A stretch of DNA of 33,098 nucleotides, from the NCBI GenBank assembly GCA_030604085.1, contig JAUVWP010000007.1, forward strand, positions 1 to 33,098. The letters run 5' to 3'. A program made the position numbers and the translations under genes. Under the pieces are notes generated by a model. It was given only the letters and a program-made list of their open reading frames with translations. It ran no database searches and was not told the origin of the DNA. This stretch comes from Methanosarcinales archaeon (lineage in GTDB: Archaea > Halobacteriota > Methanosarcinia > Methanosarcinales > Methanogasteraceae). Numbering within the stretch: position 1 is the first letter of the stretch; the number at the start of each line of letters is the position of its first letter. Shown piece after piece: positions 5,808-19,137 of the stretch.

Positions 5808-5993
5808 TCATGCACCGGGATTTGTGGAAGTGGGGTCGACTATCATGGAACACCTATCAAACCTATTCATCTGCGTCACTATTTCCTTTAACTCCTCATA
5901 TATTTTCCTATCAAATTTCAATACAAAAATCCCATACATCACCGTACTCAAAAAAACCAAAATGAAACTGCCCAGTACAAAATCTTCAGTGGA
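5808..5993 (-). pseudogene. relic of a Wzx-type flippase gene (C-terminal end only)
   Basis: Read on the minus strand, this 61-codon frame has no start codon; a stop lies just upstream at 5994-5996. It encodes VMYGIFVLKFDRKIYEELKE followed by IVTQMN. The intact flippase at 8843-10321 ends VVYGFLILKFDRKIRDELKE, IATQMN, so the two tails match almost residue for residue, and at DNA level they are roughly three quarters identical over about 75 bp. Everything N-terminal of the last membrane helix is missing. The final codons (about SMIVDPTSTNPGA) do not match. The relic starts ten bases after the GT61 gene ends and marks a former second flippase here. Confidence 0.8.
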
Positions 5994-8842: not shown

Positions 8843-10321
8843 TCACAACCAATCTGGCAATGGCATATTCATCTGTGTTGCAATCTCTTTTAACTCATCG
8901 CGTATTTTCCTATCAAATTTTAATATCAGAAACCCGTATACCACTCCGCCCAAAACGACCGGGACTAACGTCAACCACACGTTTGACAGCGGTACAAGCA
9001 TACGATACCCCCCTACGAGTAACGACATCAAACCAGAAGCTATCAGGATGTTCATCAGCGTGGTGTGTATCACTCTGATTGCTATCATCCGTGATAATGC
9101 CCGACGCGCCAAAACTGCATTCAGCACCATGGATAACAAAGTCGCAATTGCAGCGCCGTCAATACCCATCACCGGAATTAATATCAAATTCAGCACGATA
9201 TTTGCTGCTGCAGCCATAGCAGTTGCTTTGAATGCATCCTTTTGCCGATACAACGCGCCAAGGTACATCGTAAAAAAAAACTGGAAAATATTTACTAGTT
9301 GTACGATAAGCAATATCACAAGTGTCGTATACCCCTGTGCGAATTCCGCATCATAGAAAAAATATAGCAGTTTATCACCCAACAAAATCCCCCCGGCTAC
9401 TACAGGAACAGCCAATATCAGTGAGTAGCTAAATGCGCGGGAGATCGACTCCTCGATGAGTCCGAAATCTCCAATCTTCCCCCACCGGCTAACCTTGGGC
9501 CACAACGTTGAACGAAGTGCAATTGTTGTGAGTGATGATAAAGCAGCGAGTTGCAATGCAATGAGATAGATGCCCACATCTGCGTTGCTTAAATAATAAC
9601 CAATTATGACCCGATCTGCATACGAATACATCATAATCCCACCTGACGTCAAAAATATCCAGAACGAGAATGTCGACAGGCTTTTGATATGCCTCCAACC
9701 AAAACGCGTAAGGTGCAGGTCAAAAAAACGGAATTGCACTATGGCGCCAACAACCATCCCGCAAACAAAGCCGCCAGCCAACCCTGCAACACCAAACCCC
9801 AAAAAAACCGCGGCGACCTGCACGGTAATACGCGAAACGTCGTTGATAAAGCCACATGTTGCATGTATCCCCATTTTGCCGCGACCGGCAATACCACTTG
9901 AAACCGTTCCATACACAAGCGATACAGTTAACGCCACTATAAGCCAGACGAAGATCCCTTCGCTATCGAGATCCACAAAATAGCTGCGAAATGCGATCAG
10001 AGCAAGCAGAGACATAGTCACAAAGATGGAGCGCAACAGAACGAATGCGCTGAAGTATGCGTCCGGCTCTTCGCCCTCGCTGATGCGCTTCGTTGCAGCG
10101 ACACCAAACCCCCCATCACTTATTATTCCAATGATACTATAATATGCCACAAACAGAAAATATGCACCCAGAACACCTGCACCCACTACACGCGCAAAAT
10201 ACATCGTACTTAAAAATCCGATGAAAGTAAATGCGATCTGCCAGATGAACGACACTATACTCTGCCGCTGCACTTCCCCTATGCCCATGATGCGCGAGAG
10301 AATAGTATTTAACTTGAACAT
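8843..10321 (-). CDS. Wzx/RfbX-type oligosaccharide flippase (MOP superfamily)
   Basis: A 492-residue integral membrane protein with about 12-14 hydrophobic helices; it starts with a short amphipathic segment and then SIVSFIWQIAFTFIGFLSTM. Small-residue-rich helices (GVLGAYFLFVAYYSIIG, GVAGLAGGFVCGMVVGAIVQ) and charged loops follow the polysaccharide-biosynthesis protein pattern. It would move a lipid-linked oligosaccharide across the membrane. The last helix and tail, ending LKFDRKIRDELKEIATQMN, recur in the relic at 5808-5993. An A/T-rich stretch around 10374-10386 (GCTTAAAAAACC on the minus strand), 55-65 bp before ATG 10321, could be its own TATA box. No specificity can be read from the sequence. 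Confidence 0.9.
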   Translation of the reverse strand: MFKLNTILSRIMGIGEVQRQSIVSFIWQIAFTFIGFLSTMYFARVVGAGVLGAYFLFVAYYSIIGIISDGGFGVAATKRISEGEEPDAYFSAFVLLRSIFVTMSLLALIAFRSYFVDLDSEGIFVWLIVALTVSLVYGTVSSGIAGRGKMGIHATCGFINDVSRITVQVAAVFLGFGVAGLAGGFVCGMVVGAIVQFRFFDLHLTRFGWRHIKSLSTFSFWIFLTSGGIMMYSYADRVIIGYYLSNADVGIYLIALQLAALSSLTTIALRSTLWPKVSRWGKIGDFGLIEESISRAFSYSLILAVPVVAGGILLGDKLLYFFYDAEFAQGYTTLVILLIVQLVNIFQFFFTMYLGALYRQKDAFKATAMAAAANIVLNLILIPVMGIDGAAIATLLSMVLNAVLARRALSRMIAIRVIHTTLMNILIASGLMSLLVGGYRMLVPLSNVWLTLVPVVLGGVVYGFLILKFDRKIRDELKEIATQMNMPLPDWL

Positions 10322-11516: not shown

Positions 11517-12455
11517 TTAATAGCTACCACGAATCGGTTTTTCAAAATATCTTATAGTTTCCTTAAGCCCCTCTTCCAACCCCACCACCGGCTCCCACCC
11601 AAGCACATCCTTCGCCCTGCTAATATCAGGCCTCCTAACCTTCGGATCATCAACAGGCAGATCCTCAAAGACAACCCGTGAATCGCTCCCGATAATCCCA
11701 ACAACCACTTCCGCAAACTCAAGCACTGTCATCTCCCCGGGATTTCCAATATTCACAGGATCCGAAAAGTCTGACATCATCAACCGAAATAGCCCATCAA
11801 CAAGATCGGACACATAACAGAACGACCGCGTCTGCGACCCATCGCCATATACCGTGAGATCCTCGCCCCGGAGCGCCTGATTGATGAAATTCGGAACCAC
11901 CCTGCCATCGCCTGCACGCATACGCGGACCATACGTATTGAAGATGCGCGCAATTCGCGTATCCATGCCGTGATACCGGTGATACGCCATCGTGATCGCC
12001 TCGCCATACCGCTTCGCCTCATCATAGACCCCTCGTGGTCCTATCGGGTTCACGTTGCCCCAGTATGTTTCTGGCTGCGGGTTCACGAGAGGGTCGCCGT
12101 AGACCTCGGACGTGGACGCAAGCAGGAAGCGCGCCGCATGTTCTTTTGCAAGCCCAAGCATGTTGTACGTACCGAGCGCGCCTACCTTCAGCGTCTGAAT
12201 CGGCAGGGCAAAATAGTCGATCGGAGAGGCGGGGCTTGCCAGATGGAACACGTAATCGATTCTATCGCCAAAATAGAGGGGTTTTGTCACGTCGTGTTCC
12301 AGATATGTGAATCGATCCGACTCGATGTGCTCGATATTCTGTGCACTACCTGTTATCAGATTATCTACACAGATAACCTCGTGCCCTTTCAGGAGTAGAA
12401 GGTCGCAGAGGTGCGAACCCAGGAACCCTGCGCCGCCTGTTATTATTGCTTTCAT
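11517..12455 (-). CDS. UDP-glucuronate decarboxylase-like SDR epimerase (UDP-xylose synthase)
   Basis: An extended SDR of 312 residues. The NAD loop is [16 protein letters not shown] (1-16), then [10 protein letters not shown] with D31. [11 protein letters not shown] (71-81) is the signature of UXS enzymes, and [12 protein letters not shown] plus [12 protein letters not shown] (142-153; Tyr144, Lys148) give the catalytic triad. [21 protein letters not shown] near the end is also typical of UXS. The reaction would be UDP-GlcA to UDP-xylose plus CO2, though close relatives act on other UDP-uronates; the only dehydrogenase here is of UDP-HexNAc type, so UDP-GlcA must come from elsewhere. AAGGA lies seven bases before ATG 12455. 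Its 5' end is echoed by the relic at 12882-12931. Confidence 0.88.
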
Positions 12456-12480
12456 GGTAGTCCTTGTGTGGTGTATTATC

Positions 12481-12497
12481 TTGTAGCTATGCTACAA
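12481..12497. terminator. small perfect hairpin at the end of the VapB-like gene
   Basis: TTGTAGC, a three-base loop, then GCTACAA form a perfect 7-bp inverted repeat. It contains the TAG stop of the preceding minus-strand gene and lies 26 bases before the SDR start codon. It has no T-run, so it may be an operator or an RNA-processing element rather than a classical terminator. Confidence 0.35.
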
Positions 12498-12864
12498 CAT
12501 CAATTCTTATCGCAGTTGAATGCCTGGTATGTCTGTAAATATGCATGTTTATGCAGAGATAGTTGTATTTTCTAATCAAATTTTTCAACCGCCTCAATTC
12601 TTTTTGCATCATTACGTTCATCTGAACACGTACTTCAAACCCTTTTTCCCTTTGGCTTCTGATCTCTTCTACGGCAGAGGTACATTTCCATTCTTTCGAA
12701 ATCTGCTTCGACGCTGCCATCAACTCATTCCACGCATTTTCTGCCTTCTGTTCATCCCTGTGTCCCAGACCAATGACGAGTCGTTTTATCGGGACCAATT
12801 CCTGCATCATAAGGTCCAGATGCGCTCCAAGAATTTGTACTTCAGAAGTTTGTAAATCGTGCAC
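12487..12864 (-). CDS. VapB-like antitoxin with unusual C-terminal extension
   Basis: The start is GTG at 12864, supported by a full-length ribosome binding site GAGGTGAT three bases upstream. Residues 23-73 ([18 protein letters not shown], then [19 protein letters not shown] and [11 protein letters not shown]) look like small archaeal antitoxins that normally stop at that point and are followed by a PIN-domain VapC toxin. Here the frame continues for about 50 residues ([20 protein letters not shown] and a basic/aromatic tail), and no PIN gene follows. It may be an antitoxin that has lost its toxin and gained a tail by frameshift or fusion. It sits between an SDR 5'-end relic and the intact SDR gene. 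The family call is moderate; the tail is unrecognised. Confidence 0.55.
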
Positions 12865-12881
12865 ATTATCACCTCATTCAT

Positions 12882-12931
12882 GTCATGGTTTCCAATAAAT
12901 CCCGCGCCGCCTAATAACCTATTGCTTTCAT
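12882..12931 (-). pseudogene. relic of an SDR epimerase 5' end (relic a)
   Basis: On the minus strand, ATGAAAGCAATA matches the first four codons (MKAI) of the intact SDR at 12455. After a 2-base frame change comes GGCGGCGCGGGATTTATTGG, encoding GGAGFIG, and then CATGAC. An AGGA ribosome binding site precedes it as in the intact gene. Only the first Rossmann strand and loop survive; the frame then hits a stop. It begins 12 bases after the nucleotidyltransferase stop codon, where a full gene would be expected, and is followed by the VapB-like gene. Confidence 0.72.
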
Positions 12932-12943
12932 GCCATCCTCGTC

Positions 12944-13954
12944 CTAAAACTCAATTGACGATGAATCTCCAATATTCAAGGCGTTGTGCTTGCCCATAAG
13001 ATTTGCGTCGTCCCCGATGATCGATGATCGCAGATTCACCTTTGAGATGTGTGTCCGGGATCCGATGACACTATCCGAGATTATTGAATGTTCGATGACC
13101 GTACCATCTGCTACGGATGCGTACGGTCCTACGACTGAATTTATGATCCTCACATCATCGCCTATCGCCACCGGATGCACAACCACCGAGTCCACGATCT
13201 CGTAGGCATCGTTTGCGCCTTCCCGCTCATCCAACAGCACATGGTTGGTCGCAAGCAGAGATTCTGCATGCCCACAATCATACCAGCTGGAGACTGTGAA
13301 GATCTTGAACCTGCTACCGCGCCTGACCATCTCCTGTAGCGCAGCTGTCAGTTGATACTCACCCCGCGTCTTGATGTTGTTCTCGAGCATCCACGAAAGG
13401 ACTTCGAAGAGCATTGGCGTATCCTGCACAAAGTACACGCCCGATATGCCCAGATTCGAGACTGGATGCTCCGGTTTCTCCTCAAGCCGTTTGATGCATT
13501 GCGACGTAGGTTCCAGTTCAACGATCCCGTACTTCTGCGGCTCGTCGACCTCTCTGACGCCAATCGAGCCTGCGCAATGTCCGTTTTTCCTGTGCTGCTC
13601 ATAGAAGTCCAGATAACCTGATTTAAAGATCATATCGCCAAGTGCGATCATGATGTCAGAATCTCCCACCAGATCACGGGTCAGGGATATCGAATGCCCG
13701 AGACCGAGGCGCTCCTTCTGGGTCACATACTGTATACGAAATAAGCCGCTGTAATGCTCATCCACATACGAGATCACCTGCTCCTTCCGGTACCCGACCA
13801 CGAGTATGATCTCATCTGGTTCGAGGTCGATCATCCGGTCGAGGATGTGCCCGATGATTGGCTTGCCTGCGATATATACCATGGATTTCGGCTTGGTATG
13901 GGTATGCGGAAAGAGACGCGTTCCGGTTCCGGCAGCAGGGATGATTACTTTCAT
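12944..13954 (-). CDS. sugar-1-phosphate nucleotidyltransferase with beta-helix tail
   Basis: The 336-residue enzyme opens with MKVIIPAAGTGTRLFPHTHT and PKSMVYIAGKPIIGHILD, the NTP_transferase signature (G-x-G-T-R followed by a lysine). IMIALGDMIF holds the metal-binding Asp; GIVELEP, EEKPEHPVSNLGISGVYF and RGEYQLTAAL complete the core. The last 90 residues contain hexapeptide-like repeats (VAIGDDVRIINSVVGPYASV), a short left-handed beta helix. It would make an NDP-sugar from NTP and a sugar phosphate; whether the product is dTDP-Glc, UDP-Glc or GDP-Man cannot be decided. The ATG overlaps the TGA of relic b (ATGA), so translation may be coupled to that mini-frame. Confidence 0.88.
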   Translation of the reverse strand: MKVIIPAAGTGTRLFPHTHTKPKSMVYIAGKPIIGHILDRMIDLEPDEIILVVGYRKEQVISYVDEHYSGLFRIQYVTQKERLGLGHSISLTRDLVGDSDIMIALGDMIFKSGYLDFYEQHRKNGHCAGSIGVREVDEPQKYGIVELEPTSQCIKRLEEKPEHPVSNLGISGVYFVQDTPMLFEVLSWMLENNIKTRGEYQLTAALQEMVRRGSRFKIFTVSSWYDCGHAESLLATNHVLLDEREGANDAYEIVDSVVVHPVAIGDDVRIINSVVGPYASVADGTVIEHSIISDSVIGSRTHISKVNLRSSIIGDDANLMGKHNALNIGDSSSIEF

Positions 13955-14058
13955 TTTCCCCTATAAACCAATCCACTAATGCATGCCACTCCAAGCAGTC
14001 GTTCTGTGAGATACGAACATACAAACCCCGCGCCACCTGTTATAATTATTTTCATCAT
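13951..14058 (-). pseudogene. relic of an SDR epimerase 5' end (relic b), 35 codons
   Basis: From ATG 14058 the frame reads [20 protein letters not shown] and a short tail ending VYRGK, then TGA. This is the first strand, glycine-rich loop and first helix of an SDR epimerase, with the third glycine of GxxGxxG changed to cysteine. The TGA overlaps the start codon of the nucleotidyltransferase (ATGA). It follows the HEPN/MNT pair by 47 bp. It cannot be an enzyme; it may be a dead 5' end retained as a translational coupler. Confidence 0.78.
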
Positions 14059-14104
14059 TGATTCACCATCTGTTTCTCATATCATTCAATAAATCTTCCG
14101 ATCA

Positions 14105-14449
14105 TCAGATCAATACACCGCCCCCTACCGCATCCCCTATAAACAAGTTCCCTTCATCCACCATACGATCGAACTCTTCTATCGTGTAACACAGCGGCTC
14201 TATTGGCAGGTCAGTCAAACCCAGGATAGTCGCAATCCGCTTATGGAATCGCTCCTTAAAATCTCCAACGATGATTATATCGATATCGCTGCCCTCGTTC
14301 AAATCTTTTCTTACGAATGATCCGAAGACGATGATCTTATGAACGTCATACATCTTACGCACTTCTTTTGCAAACAGCCTCAATTTAGCATCTATTTCCC
14401 TATAAACTCCTTCACCCTTTCCAATATCAACTCTGCATACATTATACAT
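14105..14449 (-). CDS. mntA: minimal nucleotidyltransferase (MNT) domain protein, antitoxin of HEPN/MNT pair
   Basis: The 114-residue frame has the nucleotidyltransferase signature IIVFGSFVRKDLNEGSDIDI: GS at 43-45, then D55 and D57. MNT antitoxins such as MntA AMPylate or otherwise block their HEPN RNase partner. The fold is short, as expected for the minimal class. The only upstream ATG (14449) lies 58 bp inside the HEPN gene; the first 20 residues do not look like the family, so a start near the HEPN stop at 14392 (for example TTG) is possible. HEPN before MNT is the usual order. The pair sits between relics c and b. Confidence 0.85.
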   Translation of the reverse strand: MYNVCRVDIGKGEGVYREIDAKLRLFAKEVRKMYDVHKIIVFGSFVRKDLNEGSDIDIIIVGDFKERFHKRIATILGLTDLPIEPLCYTIEEFDRMVDEGNLFIGDAVGGGVLI

Positions 14450-14799
14450 TCTTCCGCGTCCTCCTTTTCATAATACTCGAAAGGGACCAGATCGCCTGCA
14501 ATCCCATTTGGGTATCGTGTTGGGATGTAGGCACTATCAAGAACCTTTGCCCCATGCTTACATTCCTCAAATCCCCCCTCAAATCTACTTACCTCTTTTA
14601 TGAGTTCGAATACCGAGTGCGTCAATATCTTTCTGAATCCTTTAGCATACAGAATCGACTTCAGAGCTTTCTCTGCGGCCTGCTGAGACTGAAAACACGA
14701 CCATTCATAGTCTTCTGAATATAAACTGTTTTTAGATGCTTTTAGATCCTTATCTGCCTGCTTAAACCATCTTTTTGATTCTTTTGGGTTCTCACTCAT
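14392..14799 (-). CDS. hepT: HEPN-domain protein, toxin of HEPN/MNT pair
   Basis: A 135-residue helical protein with SKRWFKQADKDLKASKNSLY and CFQSQQAAEKALKSILYAKG, the HEPN N-terminal helices. R56 and H61 in FRKILTHS form the R-x4-H RNase motif of toxic HEPN proteins, so it looks active. YIPTRYPNG near residue 92 is the usual end of the domain. A GGGTGA ribosome binding site lies six bases before ATG 14799. HEPN/MNT pairs act as toxin-antitoxin and phage-defence modules. This one is unusual in being inside a nucleotide-sugar operon, directly after an SDR relic whose stop codon overlaps the HEPN start region. Confidence 0.88.
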   Translation of the reverse strand: MSENPKESKRWFKQADKDLKASKNSLYSEDYEWSCFQSQQAAEKALKSILYAKGFRKILTHSVFELIKEVSRFEGGFEECKHGAKVLDSAYIPTRYPNGIAGDLVPFEYYEKEDAEECIMYAELILERVKEFIGK

Positions 14800-14923
14800 C
14801 CGCTTTCACCCTGCTACCCTCAACATTCTCTGCCCTTCCGGTGGGCATGTCATCGTTCTTCGAGAGTTTCTCGGCGAGATTTGAGCCTATAAATCCCGCG
14901 CCGCCTGTTGCCAGTGCCCTCAT
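14792..14923 (-). pseudogene. relic of an SDR epimerase 5' end (relic c), 43 codons
   Basis: ATG 14923 lies four bases after the stop of the intact epimerase. The frame reads MRALATGGAGFIGSNLAEKL, the complete strand-loop-helix start of an SDR, then an unrelated hydrophilic stretch (MPTGRAENVEGSRVKADE) that ends at TGA inside the HEPN start region. The nucleotide-binding glycines are intact, so truncation was by replacement of everything downstream rather than by slow decay. Confidence 0.8.
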
Positions 14924-14927
14924 TTTA

Positions 14928-15833
14928 TCAACCGATCAGTTCTTTGACCCCACGTTCCAGCGAATATTCAGGATTGTAACCAAGAACATCCCTTGCCCTC
15001 GTTATATCCGCAAGCGTATGCCCCACATAATTCTTCAAAGGATTCTCGATGTGCTGTGGCTCGATCTCTGTACCGAGTTCGCTGTTGAGGATGCGCACAA
15101 CATCATTGAAACTGTGCGATTCGCCTGTTCCGACGTTAAACACGCCGAATATGTCTTTTTTCATGGCGAGCATACATGCCTGAACCACGTCTTTAACAAA
15201 CACAAAATCCCGTGTCTGTTCGCCATCGCCATATATGACCGGAATTTCGTCTTTCTGTATCTCCCAAAGGAATTGCGAGACGATATTTGCGTATATTCCC
15301 TTTGCACGCTCATTGGGGCCATAAACCGAGAAAAATCGCAATCCGATCGAATTCACACCATATAACCCATGGTATAACTCCGCAATCCGCTCAATACACA
15401 GTCTCGCCTCTGTGTAGTAGTCGGTGACCCCGATCTTCGCATCCTCCCTATGTGGGGTGGGCACTCCATTGTACAGCGAGGAAGACGACGCAAATACAAC
15501 CTTTGCGCCCACATCCCTTGCAAACTCGAATACACTGATCGCATCATTGATTGCTGAGCCCACAAGTAGCGGATTCTCCTTGTACATTGGCGATGAAGAC
15601 GGTATACCAAGATGAACGATGGTGTCAACACCAGAGTCCGACATCCGGCTGCGGATATTGCCGCATGAATCCTCGATTAGGTCTATCTCGCTTTTCACGT
15701 CCTCCAGGTTGTCTATGTTTCCGGTATGGAGATTATCCAGCACCACGACATCATGTTCACCTGCCAGAGCAGATACCAGATTGGACCCGATAAACCCTGC
15801 TCCGCCAGTTACCAGTACGTTCATAGGCTCCAT
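14928..15833 (-). CDS. NAD-dependent sugar epimerase/dehydratase (extended SDR)
   Basis: The protein has MNVLVTGGAGFIGSNLVSAL, VVVLDNLHTG (the Asp that holds the NAD ribose), HLGIPSSSP, FASSSSLYNG, and LRFFSVYGPNERAKG. The catalytic Tyr lies in DYYTEARLCIE, where the usual Tyr-x3-Lys has Arg instead of Lys. I recall this Arg variant from a group of archaeal epimerases, so it may be normal for the subfamily. Substrate is probably a UDP- or dTDP-hexose. The longest frame starts at 15890; ATG 15833 has GGTG five bases upstream, and ATG 15824 (MNVLV) has GGAG three bases upstream. Either is plausible. It follows the TumE module; relic c follows it. Confidence 0.85.
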   Translation of the reverse strand: MEPMNVLVTGGAGFIGSNLVSALAGEHDVVVLDNLHTGNIDNLEDVKSEIDLIEDSCGNIRSRMSDSGVDTIVHLGIPSSSPMYKENPLLVGSAINDAISVFEFARDVGAKVVFASSSSLYNGVPTPHREDAKIGVTDYYTEARLCIERIAELYHGLYGVNSIGLRFFSVYGPNERAKGIYANIVSQFLWEIQKDEIPVIYGDGEQTRDFVFVKDVVQACMLAMKKDIFGVFNVGTGESHSFNDVVRILNSELGTEIEPQHIENPLKNYVGHTLADITRARDVLGYNPEYSLERGVKELIG

Positions 15834-15937
15834 ATTTGCACCAGTAATAAATATACCTTGTTGTGTCGATGGGTGTGAGAACTCCTGCATTTTTAGGAGC
15901 TTCTTAACCTTTCAAACTCACGCTTCCATACCACCTA

Positions 15938-16156
15938 TCAAACCTTCGGACACCGTCCTGCTAATTTCCGTATATATGTTTCCACACTTCTCCTTACAAT
16001 CTCCCCCATGCAGGAGTTTTGAACATCTTCTTCCGGTAATAATTCCGATATCCTTTCCATTTGTTTCACCACCTGAGGTGCGAGGAGATTCGTTCCAGAT
16101 GAAACAATCCTTCCTATGGTAGAGAAGACTTTACCAGAGAAACAAAACGTTACCAT
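15938..16156 (-). CDS. small protein following the TumE-like toxin, possible ribbon-helix-helix
   Basis: The 72-residue frame overlaps the TumE-like gene by 7 bp. Its second half (MGEIVRRSVETYIRKLAG) resembles the second helix of ribbon-helix-helix regulators. The first 20 residues (MVTFCFSGKVFSTIGRIVSS) do not look like the family and may be a run-on before a later start. GGAG lies about 11 bases before ATG 16156. It could be an extra antitoxin/regulator of the module or a remnant; I do not recognise it firmly. Confidence 0.4.
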   Translation of the reverse strand: MVTFCFSGKVFSTIGRIVSSGTNLLAPQVVKQMERISELLPEEDVQNSCMGEIVRRSVETYIRKLAGRCPKV

Positions 16157-16539
16157 CTACTTATCATCTCCTCGATTTCCAATAAAACATCCTTCAATCC
16201 GACTTCTTTCGATCGTCTCGGTACCTTCTCTCCTTTTACATGTTTATGGTGCGGATAAGTAGCGATCTCCAGATGATGGGGGGGGGCATTATCATATTTA
16301 AAAACCATTTCGTCATTTACATTCGCCAAATGAAATCCATACTTCAGGCGAATCATCTTATCTCTCTTTATATTTATCAGTTCCATAAATTGAAGTGTAG
16401 AGCCATCGAGCATCCCCAATATCCCATGAACTATTCCAATACTTCTCGATTTTACCTCATATTCAACATCTACGTTTTCAACGAATATTGAACTTCTTAT
16501 GAGGCTTTGAATCTCTGAGAAGTGATCTATCACCTGCAT
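16150..16539 (-). CDS. TumE-like toxin (DUF6516)
   Basis: The 129-residue protein fits the DUF6516/TumE pattern: YEVKSRSIGIVHGILGMLDG, LQFMELINIKRDKMIRLKYG, FHLANVNDEMVFKYDNAPPH and ATYPHHKHVKGEKVPRRSKE followed by VLLEIEEMI. The RYDNA-like and PHHKH blocks are the family's key features; histidines there are thought to be catalytic. Members are small toxins, presumed RNases or translation blockers, next to a small antitoxin. The start (ATG 16539) overlaps the upstream antitoxin gene by 10 bp, as expected for a TA pair. A poly-C tract at 16278-16284 lies inside the frame and could be slippage-prone. Confidence 0.8.
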   Translation of the reverse strand: MQVIDHFSEIQSLIRSSIFVENVDVEYEVKSRSIGIVHGILGMLDGSTLQFMELINIKRDKMIRLKYGFHLANVNDEMVFKYDNAPPHHLEIATYPHHKHVKGEKVPRRSKEVGLKDVLLEIEEMISRW

Positions 16540-16823
16540 GACTCAAGCATCCTCTCGATGACGATGCACTCTTTCTCAAGAAATCCAAGTGCTTCGTACT
16601 CAGCAGACCATACCATGGCATCCTGGTCGTCCCCGGCAAGTCCTTTCTCGAATTTTTCAAAAAATTCTTTGCTGCCCATTCCTTTTCTCTCTTCAAAAGC
16701 TATCAGCTTCTTCGTTGTTTCAGAGATGCTCCGGTCCAGCAAAAGCTTTTTTCTATTGAGTAATTGCCCCAACACGTCAATCGCTATCACAACATCAGGA
16801 ACCTCCAGCTTTATCACGCCCAT
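16530..16823 (-). CDS. antitoxin partner of TumE-like toxin
   Basis: The 97-residue protein contains TTKKLIAFEERKGMGSKEFF, EKFEKGLAGDDQDAMVWSAE and YEALGFLEKE. This acidic helical motif is frequent in small archaeal proteins encoded directly before DUF6516 toxins, so I call it the antitoxin. The ATG at 16823 has TGAGGCGAT three bases upstream. The N-terminal half (IKLEVPDVVIAIDVLGQLLN) resembles no DNA-binding domain I know. Just upstream lies SDR relic d. Confidence 0.72.
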   Translation of the reverse strand: MGVIKLEVPDVVIAIDVLGQLLNRKKLLLDRSISETTKKLIAFEERKGMGSKEFFEKFEKGLAGDDQDAMVWSAEYEALGFLEKECIVIERMLESCR

Positions 16824-16871
16824 GTAATCGCCTCATATCCTTATTCTATAGTTCGCTGCTTCTGATATTCC

Positions 16872-17021
16872 TTATACTAAAGTTTTTGTGAATATACTCA
16901 ATAATTCGTGACAAACAGATAACCTTCGATCGATCCCGATCACATCAAAACCATCTCCGAGCAGCCGTTTTGTGAGATGCGAGCCTATGAACCCCGCGCA
17001 TCCAGTTACCAGTGCTATCAT
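16872..17021 (-). pseudogene. relic of an SDR epimerase 5' end (relic d), 49 codons
   Basis: ATG 17021 overlaps the galU TGA (ATGA). The frame reads MIALVTGCAGFIGSHLTKRL and LGDGFDVIGIDRR, so strand 1, the GxxGxxG loop, helix 1, strand 2 and the ribose-binding Asp are intact. From residue 34 the sequence is unrelated and ends at TAA. The TumE antitoxin gene starts 48 bases later. The relic preserves the position and coupling of a former epimerase gene downstream of galU. Confidence 0.82.
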
Positions 17022-17866
17022 TTCATCACCTGTAGATAATTCTCGATCTCTTCTCTTAAATCCTCTCGTTCCAGCGCAAAATCGATAATTGCTCTTATGT
17101 AATCGGCTTTATCTCCTGCATCGTATCGCTTTCCTCTGAACGTGTATGCACAAACACCCTCCCGATCAACAAGCATCCTTATGGCATCGGTCAGTTGTAT
17201 CTCGCCCCCGAACCCGGGCCCCACCTCCTTGATGCACGAGAATATCGCTGGCGTAAGGATGTATCTCCCGATCGCTCCCATATTCGATGGCGCATCGCGC
17301 GCGTCTGGTTTTTCGATGATATCCTCGACGCGGTATATCGACTCATCGATCTTGCTGCCTTTTATGATCCCGTATTTGCTCACGTCACTGACCTCTTCCA
17401 CTGCCAGCACAGAGCGTTTATGTGTCATGTAAACGTCCATCAACTGCTTTATGCAGAGTTCTCCCCTGATGATGTCATCGCCAAGCAGAACAGCGAATGT
17501 TTCATCGCCGACGTGCTTTTCTGCCCGGAGCACCGCATCCCCAAGCCCCTTTGGTTCTTTCTGCCGTATGTAATGGATATCTACCATCGAAGAGATGTCC
17601 CGTACTTCCTTTAATAATTCATCCTTCCCATTTTTAAGGAGATGGCTTTCAAGTTCCGGAGACGTGTCAAAATAGTCTTCAAGAGCCCGTTTGCCTCTAC
17701 CTGTGATGATCAGAATATCATCGATGCCGGAAGCTACTGCCTCTTCCACAACGAACTGGATGATCGGCTTATCGATGATCGGGAGCATCTCCTTCGGCAT
17801 CGATTTCGTAACCGGAAGGAACCTTGTCCCAAGCCCCGCAGCAGGGATTATCGCTTTCTTAATCAT
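17018..17866 (-). CDS. galU: UTP-glucose-1-phosphate uridylyltransferase
   Basis: GalU makes UDP-glucose from UTP and glucose-1-P. Blocks are IKKAIIPAAGLGTRFLPVTK and SMPKEMLPIIDKPIIQFVVE (the GalU signature), FAVLLGDDII with the metal Asp, GIIKGSKIDE, EKPDARDAPSNMGAIGRYIL and GPGFGGEIQLTDAIRMLVD, ending with GKRYDAGDKADYIRA. All are canonical and the 282-residue length is usual for the family. ATG 17866 is chosen because GAGGT lies about eight bases upstream; a GTG at 17887 would give seven extra residues. It follows the second GlmU-like gene by 83 bp and is directly coupled to relic d. Confidence 0.95.
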   Translation of the reverse strand: MIKKAIIPAAGLGTRFLPVTKSMPKEMLPIIDKPIIQFVVEEAVASGIDDILIITGRGKRALEDYFDTSPELESHLLKNGKDELLKEVRDISSMVDIHYIRQKEPKGLGDAVLRAEKHVGDETFAVLLGDDIIRGELCIKQLMDVYMTHKRSVLAVEEVSDVSKYGIIKGSKIDESIYRVEDIIEKPDARDAPSNMGAIGRYILTPAIFSCIKEVGPGFGGEIQLTDAIRMLVDREGVCAYTFRGKRYDAGDKADYIRAIIDFALEREDLREEIENYLQVMK

Positions 17867-17949
17867 TCGCTTAAACCTCGCACTCACGATTCATTAACAT
17901 TTTCATATCATTTCACCCCAGATAACCCACCGGGTAACAAGCCCCATAA

Positions 17950-19137
17950 TCATCGCATCACAACCTCCCCGGGACGCGTGCTCATGCAAGCCGCCATCAT
18001 CACGCCGACGTTGATGCTCGTATTGATCCCGGTATGCACACCATCCCCCATGACCACGCCGAGTTTCCTCCTGCCCGTGTCGACAGACTCGCCCTTCACA
18101 ACCGCACGGATGTTCCTGTCGTCATGCCGCAGGTTTGCGATCTTCGTTCCGGCGCCGAGATTGCAGCCACGCCCGATGACGCTATCCCCGACATAACTGA
18201 GATGACCGATGTTTGTTCCGTCCATCACGATGCTGTTTTTGACCTCAACAGCATTCCCGATGCGCACGTTATCGCTTATGGACGTACCCGGTCTGATAAA
18301 GCAGTTCGGACCGATATCACAGTTCTCTCCGATGATTACAGGTCCTGTGATATAAGATCCGTTTCTAATGATGCTGCCCTTCCCGACCCGAATATTACCG
18401 TGCAATGTGGCGTAGGGCTCGACTACGCCTGCAATCTCTGCATCGGTGCCAGCAAGCAGATATTCGTTTGCATCCAGCAGGTTCCACGGTCTTCCGATAT
18501 CGATCCATGTATCGAGCATCGAGTAGCCGATGTCGAGAACGCTTGCAAGCGCATTTATGGAATCCGTGATCTCGTATTCCCCGCGTACCGATTCCCCGGT
18601 CTCCCTGATGGCATCAAAGATGGTATCAGGGAAGAGGTATATCCCTGCATTCACCAGATTCCCGGCTGCATGGTCTGGTTTCTCGATGAGCCGGGCGACC
18701 CTGCCGCCCTCGGTCTTCACAACGCCGTACCCCGCGGGATTCTCCAGTTCCTTTGTTGCAAGGACGATATCCTCCTCCCGTCCGATTAGAGCACGAAGAT
18801 TAGACGGCGCAACGATCGCATCGCCGTTTAAGACGAGGAATCGCGCGCCCACGGATCGAGAAGCCATTCCTATCGCATGTGCTGTGCCGAGTTGCTCTCT
18901 CTGCTCCACGTAATCGATACGGACGCCAAGGCGACTTCCGTCCCCAAAATACTCCCTGATAACATCGCCCATGTACCCGACCACGCAGACAAAATCGTTG
19001 ATACCTGCATCCCGCGCAGCCACGATGATATGCTCAAGTATCGGTCTGTTTGCAACCGGCAGCATCACTTTCGGGCACGATGCCGTCAGCGGACGCATTC
19101 TCGTCCCTTCACCTGCTGCTAAGATCACTGCTTTCAT
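17950..19137 (-). CDS. glmU: GlmU-type bifunctional sugar nucleotidyltransferase/acetyltransferase
   Basis: The N-terminal half is an NTP transferase: MKAVILAAGEGTRMRPLTAS and PKVMLPVANRPILEHII, FLVLNGDAIV, AGYGVVKTEGG, EKPDHAAGNLVNAGIYLF and VRGEYEITDSINAL. From about residue 230 a left-handed beta helix of hexapeptide repeats follows (IIGENCDIGPNCFIRPGTSI), then the acetyltransferase end region with a glycine-rich turn GRGCNLGAGTKIANLRHDD. The archaeal two-domain enzyme makes UDP-GlcNAc from GlcN-1-P. This copy keeps the exact G-x-G-T-R. Its ATG lies 29 bp inside the 3' end of glmM, so translation is coupled. A paralogue sits at 22527-23732. Confidence 0.88.
   Translation of the reverse strand: MKAVILAAGEGTRMRPLTASCPKVMLPVANRPILEHIIVAARDAGINDFVCVVGYMGDVIREYFGDGSRLGVRIDYVEQREQLGTAHAIGMASRSVGARFLVLNGDAIVAPSNLRALIGREEDIVLATKELENPAGYGVVKTEGGRVARLIEKPDHAAGNLVNAGIYLFPDTIFDAIRETGESVRGEYEITDSINALASVLDIGYSMLDTWIDIGRPWNLLDANEYLLAGTDAEIAGVVEPYATLHGNIRVGKGSIIRNGSYITGPVIIGENCDIGPNCFIRPGTSISDNVRIGNAVEVKNSIVMDGTNIGHLSYVGDSVIGRGCNLGAGTKIANLRHDDRNIRAVVKGESVDTGRRKLGVVMGDGVHTGINTSINVGVMMAACMSTRPGEVVMR

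Follow-up and report, generated by a model that had tools for sequence, protein, structure and literature searches.

Introduction

Toxin–antitoxin (TA) modules are known to move, most of them without a transposase, and the route by which they enter a chromosome is, to our knowledge, largely unanswered. The locus described here poses this question in a concrete form. In a stretch of 33,098 nucleotides from a Methanosarcinales archaeon (GenBank assembly GCA_030604085.1, contig JAUVWP010000007.1, positions 1 to 33,098 of the forward strand; here called the window), which belongs to contig C115 of an archaeal draft genome of 2.0 Mb (G000), three TA-like modules, namely TumA/TumE, HEPN-MNT and a VapB-like gene, lie between 5' ends of genes for short-chain dehydrogenases/reductases (SDR), four of these ends being truncated stubs (a to d). 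How did the modules come to be bracketed by broken and intact SDR starts? Most likely, the stubs mark repeated insertions of TA-like modules at conserved gene starts, accompanied by target duplications that are long and vary in length. At interrupted sites the original start stays beside its upstream neighbour as a stub, the module comes next and, in the clear cases, the complete target gene follows with a second copy of its start. This footprint is shared by genes other than SDR genes, the duplicates vary in length, and SDR starts exchange with one another. The close relatives of the window genome are assemblies of the ANME-2 cluster (anaerobic methanotrophic archaea) and other Methanosarcinales metagenome assemblies, among them G001 (QBUV01000177) and G006 (PQXF01000005).

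Stubs at sites that are empty in relatives

All genes of the region 11517–17887 lie on the minus strand. Their order of transcription is galU, stub d, the TumA-like gene, TumE, a gene for a 72-aa protein, an intact epimerase gene (SDRepi, 14928–15824) and stub c, followed by HEPN, MNT, stub b, a sugar nucleotidyltransferase gene, stub a, the VapB-like gene and a UXS-like SDR gene. An earlier note, made from the sequence alone, had placed four SDR stubs and, between SDR 5' ends, three TA-like modules in this region, and both placements were borne out. PF01370 matches stub d (E=4.7e-9), stub c (9e-4) and stub b (9e-3), and the stubs form one direct-repeat family together with the SDR start at 15824.

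The first site is anchored on its left by galU (17018–17887; NCBIfam galU, E=2e-112, above cut-off, and synteny). G001 and G006 show the ancestral order galU-SDR1-SDR2, and in G001, G003 and G015, which represent empty sites for stub d, SDR1 begins inside the galU stop codon. Stub d (16872–17021, 49 codons) likewise overlaps the galU stop with its ATG (GATGAAATGATAG). Compared to the galU-SDR1 junction of G001 it shows 95.4% identity over 153 nt, after which homology is lost abruptly, and it is thus identified as the start of SDR1, which it matches for 93 nt past the ATG. SDRepi is not the continuation of this SDR1 but a different SDR, located upstream of galU in G006; it is 92–95% identical to the G006 and G002 genes and about 39% to the SDR2 proteins of the relatives.

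A filled SDR2 site is present in G003, where a whole SDR1 is followed by a 49-codon SDR2 stub, HEPN, MNT and a whole SDR2. The stub and the intact SDR2 share a 168-nt duplicate (88%) that starts in the SDR1 tail, and the G003 module is 95% identical to the HEPN-MNT module of the window. For stub a (12882–12931), the original UXS start with a broken frame, the empty site is found in G014, where UXS directly adjoins the nucleotidyltransferase gene. The window, in which this gene (12944–13954; PF00483, E=1.6e-34) has an 86% homologue in G014:C177, matches the G014 junction at 86% over 94 nt, as far as stub a reaches; then follow the VapB-like gene and a second, complete UXS (11517–12455, ATG at 12455; orthologue in G014). 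Stub a and this UXS are the one simple pair of stub and intact copy of the same gene in the window, from which SDR1 and SDR2 have been lost.

Other modules occupy the same sites in relatives. At the SDR1 site of G010 a tiny stub (about 20 nt), VapB-PIN and an intact SDR1 follow one another, and at its SDR2 site an SDR2 stub, a SatD gene with a membrane protein gene, and an intact SDR2. The SDR1 site of G006 holds a stub, a DUF5678 gene with an aspartyl-protease-like gene, and an intact SDR1. On a Syntrophoarchaeum contig (L126), the SDR1 stub has 132 codons; behind it stand two genes, one of them DUF5678-like, and then SDR1 again, with a 389-nt duplicate of 94% identity. In several cases the last stop codon of the module overlaps the ATG of the restored gene. 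Outside the group, the 80 SDR1-type loci contain almost no SDR stubs. Two ANME-1 type contigs carry MNT-HEPN pairs exactly between galU and SDR1 (L119, 5137–5945; L121, 5131–5944), and the MNT frame of L119 starts with MKRVLVTD, resembling an SDR1 start fused to MNT.

Among 17 related genomes, 5 of 54 SDR starts are short-frame stubs, compared to 0 of 69 nucleotidyltransferase starts (Fisher p=0.015), several of these control starts lying in the same operons as the SDR starts. Could the stubs nevertheless be products of chance decay, with SDR paralogues of a fast-evolving polysaccharide operon truncated independently and TA modules beside them by accident? SDR genes are indeed lost and shuffled here, as seen from the missing SDR1 and SDR2 and the moved SDRepi, the genome holds several of them, and the stub break points differ. 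However, the relatives with empty sites hold whole SDR genes at exactly these junctions, the left flanks continue into the stubs at 86–95% identity and then stop abruptly, and intact copies stand downstream of the modules in G003, G006, G010 and L126. Moreover, none of the nucleotidyltransferase starts is a stub, and the footprint is repeated at kae1, oadA and UPF0280 (see below). Chance decay is hence very improbable. Since relatives show the loci uninterrupted, we read the stubs as original gene starts lying upstream of inserts.

This agrees with the proposal of the earlier note that TA modules entered at SDR starts and that their insertion left a direct copy of the target start, which is backed by the empty and filled sites; uninterrupted relatives carrying stubs without TA genes would have spoken against it, and those relatives have whole SDR genes. 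The further statement that all stubs break off just after the GGAGFIG-coding stretch is not exact: stub d extends 93 nt, the SDR2 homology of stub c reaches about codon 47, and stub a stops within the GGAGF block.

Chimeric stubs

Stubs b and c differ from simple gene starts in that each of them switches parent at a GGYGGCGCGGG block, which codes for GGAGF. Left of this block, stub c (14792–14923, 43 codons, its stop overlapping the HEPN ATG) corresponds to the start of the SDR behind SDRepi in G002 and G006; right of it, to SDR2 codons ~8–47, linked to HEPN as in the G003 stub. The informative sites change from 20:1 to 3:14 across the block (Fisher p=9e-7). Stub b (13951–14058, 35 codons, its stop overlapping the nucleotidyltransferase ATG) is the mirror image: its left part is the SDR1 tail and SDR2 start as found behind the G003 MNT, its right part is the follower SDR, and the switch occurs in the same block (16:0 versus 4:12 informative sites, Fisher p=1.6e-5). 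Stub a and the G006 stub have a common VapB leader and diverge to the left of the block (p=5e-7 and 7e-13), a pattern that could be due to independent landing after the same block. The four parent-switch tests thus give p values from 1.6e-5 to 7e-13. A stretch coding for IFITGAN before SDRepi was considered as a further stub and dropped as too short.

Since stubs b and c are both chimeric at the block, a piece reaching from block to block and containing HEPN-MNT was placed into another SDR start. SDR starts therefore appear to recombine with one another as well, having moved HEPN-MNT to a new place, which backs the homologous exchange at the Rossmann-coding block that the earlier note had suggested. 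At a G003-like locus, recombination between the two block copies would release the HEPN-MNT piece and restore SDR2; the excised module with its one block copy could then re-enter another SDR start by homologous recombination. An equivalent exchange with a related genome would fit the pattern as well. The frame of stub c is intact despite a deletion relative to G003, which together with the start/stop overlaps suggests that the stubs serve translational coupling, and stub frames overlapping the next start codon may have been kept for this purpose.

The same footprint at other genes

The chimeric stubs raise the possibility that the SDR start is a dedicated, integron-like recombination site of an SDR-specific cassette system, with modules travelling as circles that carry one block copy. 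All chimeric stubs switch in one block, SDR starts receive several module types, HEPN-MNT occurs at two SDR sites with block-to-block boundaries, and the same VapB-like leader stands behind two different stub halves. A repeat scan, which began with two long G006 contigs and in its extended form took in 617 kb of G006, 240 kb from the window's own genome and 400 kb from an outside genome, bears on this possibility. In G006, a 208-nt duplicate of oadA (92%), including the promoter (36 nt before the ATG), surrounds a two-gene insert, and the thermosome-oadA junction is empty in five members of the genus (G000, G001, G002, G003 and G005). Further cases lie around HEPN and PIN genes of the family. 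UPF0280 shows a 217-nt duplicate (86%) with MNT-HEPN. At kae1, duplicates of 639 nt (87%) in G011 and 415 nt (90%) in G006 are found with inserts that are AF2212-like/PIN or unnamed pairs. G011 here shows a ladder of stub, module, stub, module and intact gene, and further kae1 stubs occur in G013 (again a ladder), in G004 and in the window's own genome (C148). The same ladder is seen at wecB in G004, with three stubs around two PIN modules.

Unrelated genes (kae1, oadA, UPF0280 and wecB) thus bear the footprint, and stub lengths range from ~20 to 389 nt, so that no fixed site is apparent. In the module region there is no recombinase gene, and terminal inverted repeats, which were searched for around the modules, were not found. 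As ordinary homologous recombination is enough for the exchanges, an SDR-specific cassette system appears quite improbable, and the idea that SDR starts are a special entry point had to be given up. Insertion at conserved gene starts in general, with target duplications of about 20 to 639 nt (some 200–640 bp for the 5' duplications at non-SDR genes), describes the sites better.

The duplicated part is not always the 5' end. In G006 (L041/G006:C125, 94572–99248), UGD was duplicated repeatedly in its 3' part: the gene is followed by a PIN module and a 3' fragment of UGD, then by HEPN-MNT and another, longer 3' part (649 nt, 93%). SDR1 shows a 3' duplication in L122. Such 3' duplications are expected if the duplicated stretch can sit at either end of a gene.

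Several observations accompany these sites. The kae1 5' fragment of the window's own genome (L392 4831–5116, minus strand, on G000:C148) is remote from the intact kae1 on contig C99, and G004:C208 carries a similar remote set of kae1 stubs. In G006:C136 (L239, 2816–3661), a gene for an Mrr-type restriction endonuclease stands immediately before a kae1 stub, which is accompanied by a small module of two genes; the kae1 site takes restriction genes as well as small modules. In L355 (G036:C2), a HEPN gene stands between the two copies (531 nt, 97%) of a duplicated RelE-like gene, a case of a TA module within another TA gene. Tandem surface-protein paralogues, CBS-domain repeats and spurious open reading frames (ORFs) in the scan were rejected as scars, as was a deacetylase duplicate in L246, which lies beside a transposase and N-stretches and is possibly a scaffolding artefact.

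Flanking repeats compared to random places

Direct repeats flanking TA genes were counted under a strict criterion (at least 80% identity over at least 60 bp). They occur at 15 of 83 HEPN/PIN loci and at 32 of 750 random places (p=1.5e-5); when the family alone is counted, the figures are 9/55 and 26/450 (p=0.008), the loci of related genomes not being fully independent. Cross-locus pairs (3/145) had been tried as control and were too lenient, so that random positions in the same genomes under the strict criterion replaced them. HEPN loci of more distant families have flanking repeats in 10 of 28 cases, some of which (L355, L356) have the look of a target duplication; no lineage restriction is therefore claimed.

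The random places also speak to the order of events. Replication errors could have duplicated the target in tandem, with a TA module landing harmlessly in the redundant copy later. Local direct repeats free of TA genes are frequent, as the 26 of 450 random places show, and prior duplication would account for the intact downstream copies as well as for 3' duplications such as that of UGD. On the other hand, in the relatives examined no empty duplicated intermediate is found at the SDR, oadA and UXS sites, and the duplicate ends coincide with the module borders. We consider this order of events fairly unlikely and retain insertion with concomitant target duplication as the preferred reading.

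Several points weigh against this preference. Only 46 nt, at 76% identity, are common to stub a and UXS. Because the window has lost SDR1 and SDR2, two of the three events are read through relatives, and the shortest stubs, such as the ~20 nt at the SDR1 site of G010, are unrecognisable without synteny. A SatD insert stands between glmU and galU in G004 and G005 without a galU stub. Any local direct repeat is found at 11–12% of random places in these genomes, and under a loose criterion HEPN loci alone are not enriched (6/28 versus 22/200, p=0.13). Finally, apart from the controls, the data are metagenome assemblies throughout.

Proposed route of entry

The shapes of the junctions would fit homology-facilitated illegitimate recombination. 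A first entry might proceed by illegitimate joining on the upstream side, the downstream duplicate arising either from one-sided, homology-facilitated homologous recombination or from a repaired staggered break. One-sided homologous together with one-sided illegitimate joining has been described for PabI-linked duplications (PMC4615327). In tightly overlapping operons, only events that leave the neighbours whole would survive. Such selection would explain why 5' stubs dominate there: a left junction placed before the galU stop would disrupt galU, and the junctions that survive lie within the next gene. Direct repeats of 100–600 bp would be expected to cause rapid loss of the insert, and TA addiction would counter-select this loss. 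TA pairs here, and restriction systems in earlier work, may be seen in such form because a TA pair punishes its loss.

A broader scheme can be drawn, in which TA and restriction genes circulate in ANME-2 and relatives as small DNA molecules, each with a single copy of some conserved gene start, and enter any homologous gene at this start; housekeeping starts would then be attachment sites, and stub ladders an insertion history. We regard this scheme as speculative and rather unlikely.

The stub footprint suggests how gene pairs free of a transposase move. As empty sites, filled sites, duplicated starts and chimeric re-insertions occur together in one archaeal family, the question of entry can be tested on sequence data. 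Any genome can be scanned for the stub–module–intact signature, and the kae1 and SDR ladders give the relative order of insertions. Annotators of these archaea should be aware that a short 'epimerase', 'Kae1' or 'WecB' gene next to a TA pair is probably the scar of an insertion.

Identity of the modules

In module 1, the TumE toxin (16150–16539) matches PF20126 with E=6.9e-17, while the 97-aa TumA-like antitoxin (16530–16823) remains below the NCBIfam TumA cut-off (E=4.3e-10; 39.7 bits against 100). The same order is present in G002, as is the 72-aa protein behind TumE (15938–16156), which is without a Pfam or NCBIfam match. The TumE frame holds a C9 tract (16278–16286, minus strand), and the G002 TumE frame breaks exactly there, at a shorter C tract; judging from these sequences, slippage at the tract may switch or inactivate the toxin.

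Module 2 shows the features of a type VII HEPN-MNT pair: the HEPN toxin (14392–14799; PF05168, E=3.9e-32) has the RX4H motif as RKILTH, the MNT antitoxin (14105–14449; PF01909, E=2.1e-11) has GSX10DXD as GSFVRKDLNEGSDID, and the genes overlap. The 125-aa VapB-like antitoxin of module 3 (12487–12864) has no family match; its G010 homologue (63% identical) directly precedes a PIN toxin gene. Between 12487 and 12455 there is no PIN gene with which a VapBC pair could be formed, and the PIN partner of the window gene is lost.

A scar of the SatD and membrane-protein module lies at 17887–17950 in the gap between GlmU and galU, where the end of the membrane gene alone remains; the module is whole at this place in G004 and G005 and decayed in G002. 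Further away, a second flippase 3' fragment of about 40 codons (~5855–5965, minus strand) lies ~2.9 kb downstream of the intact flippase gene (8843–10321) and is possibly another rearrangement scar.

Comparison with known systems

Among the module genes there is no transposase ORF, and the duplications are long and variable, so that the hallmarks of transposons and insertion sequences are missing. As with integron cassettes, modules stack at one place and exchange via a short shared block. Unlike in integrons, however, the target block is part of an ordinary coding sequence, the stubs differ in length and many genes serve as targets; 12455–17021 contains no integrase ORF and no attC-like site, and its inverted repeats are weak and unplaced. 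In Thermus thermophilus and Deinococcus, an operon of one strain contains HEPN-MNT and the otherwise syntenic operon of a second strain lacks it (PMC2701414), a presence/absence pattern like the one seen here, for which that paper does not report target duplication.

Closer in form are the immunity-gene arrays of the type VI secretion system (T6SS) of Vibrio cholerae, for which homology-facilitated illegitimate recombination has been proposed (PMC5361080). There, too, toxin/antidote genes were inserted successively at one anchor with older pieces remaining in a ladder, one end being homologous and the other joined illegitimately, which is the form envisaged here. In the T6SS arrays the upstream region of the module itself provides the homologous anchor and the old immunity genes persist, whereas in the present case the downstream housekeeping gene would take this role, and its 5' end is left behind.

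The earlier note knew of no described system of this kind, which was too strong, as the accounts of PMC3874152 and PMC3031569, where Nobusato et al. (2000) and Furuta et al. (2010) are cited, already put forward insertion with long target duplication for restriction–modification systems. For archaeal TA modules we found no such report among the open-licence papers searched. The sites described here have the defining features of that process, namely an insert absent in relatives and a flanking direct duplication that is long and variable. As far as these accounts go, the restriction–modification inserts share with them a toxin/antidote pair, no attached mobile element, an empty site in relatives and a direct duplication of variable length on the order of 100 bp. 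The inserts at the SDR sites are TA-like and not restriction–modification systems, the Mrr-type gene beside the G006 kae1 stub notwithstanding. What differs here are the modules, that is, HEPN-MNT, PIN, TumE, DUF5678/protease and SatD in ANME-2 and related archaea, together with targets that are often gene starts, the formation of ladders and the later exchange between paralogous targets.

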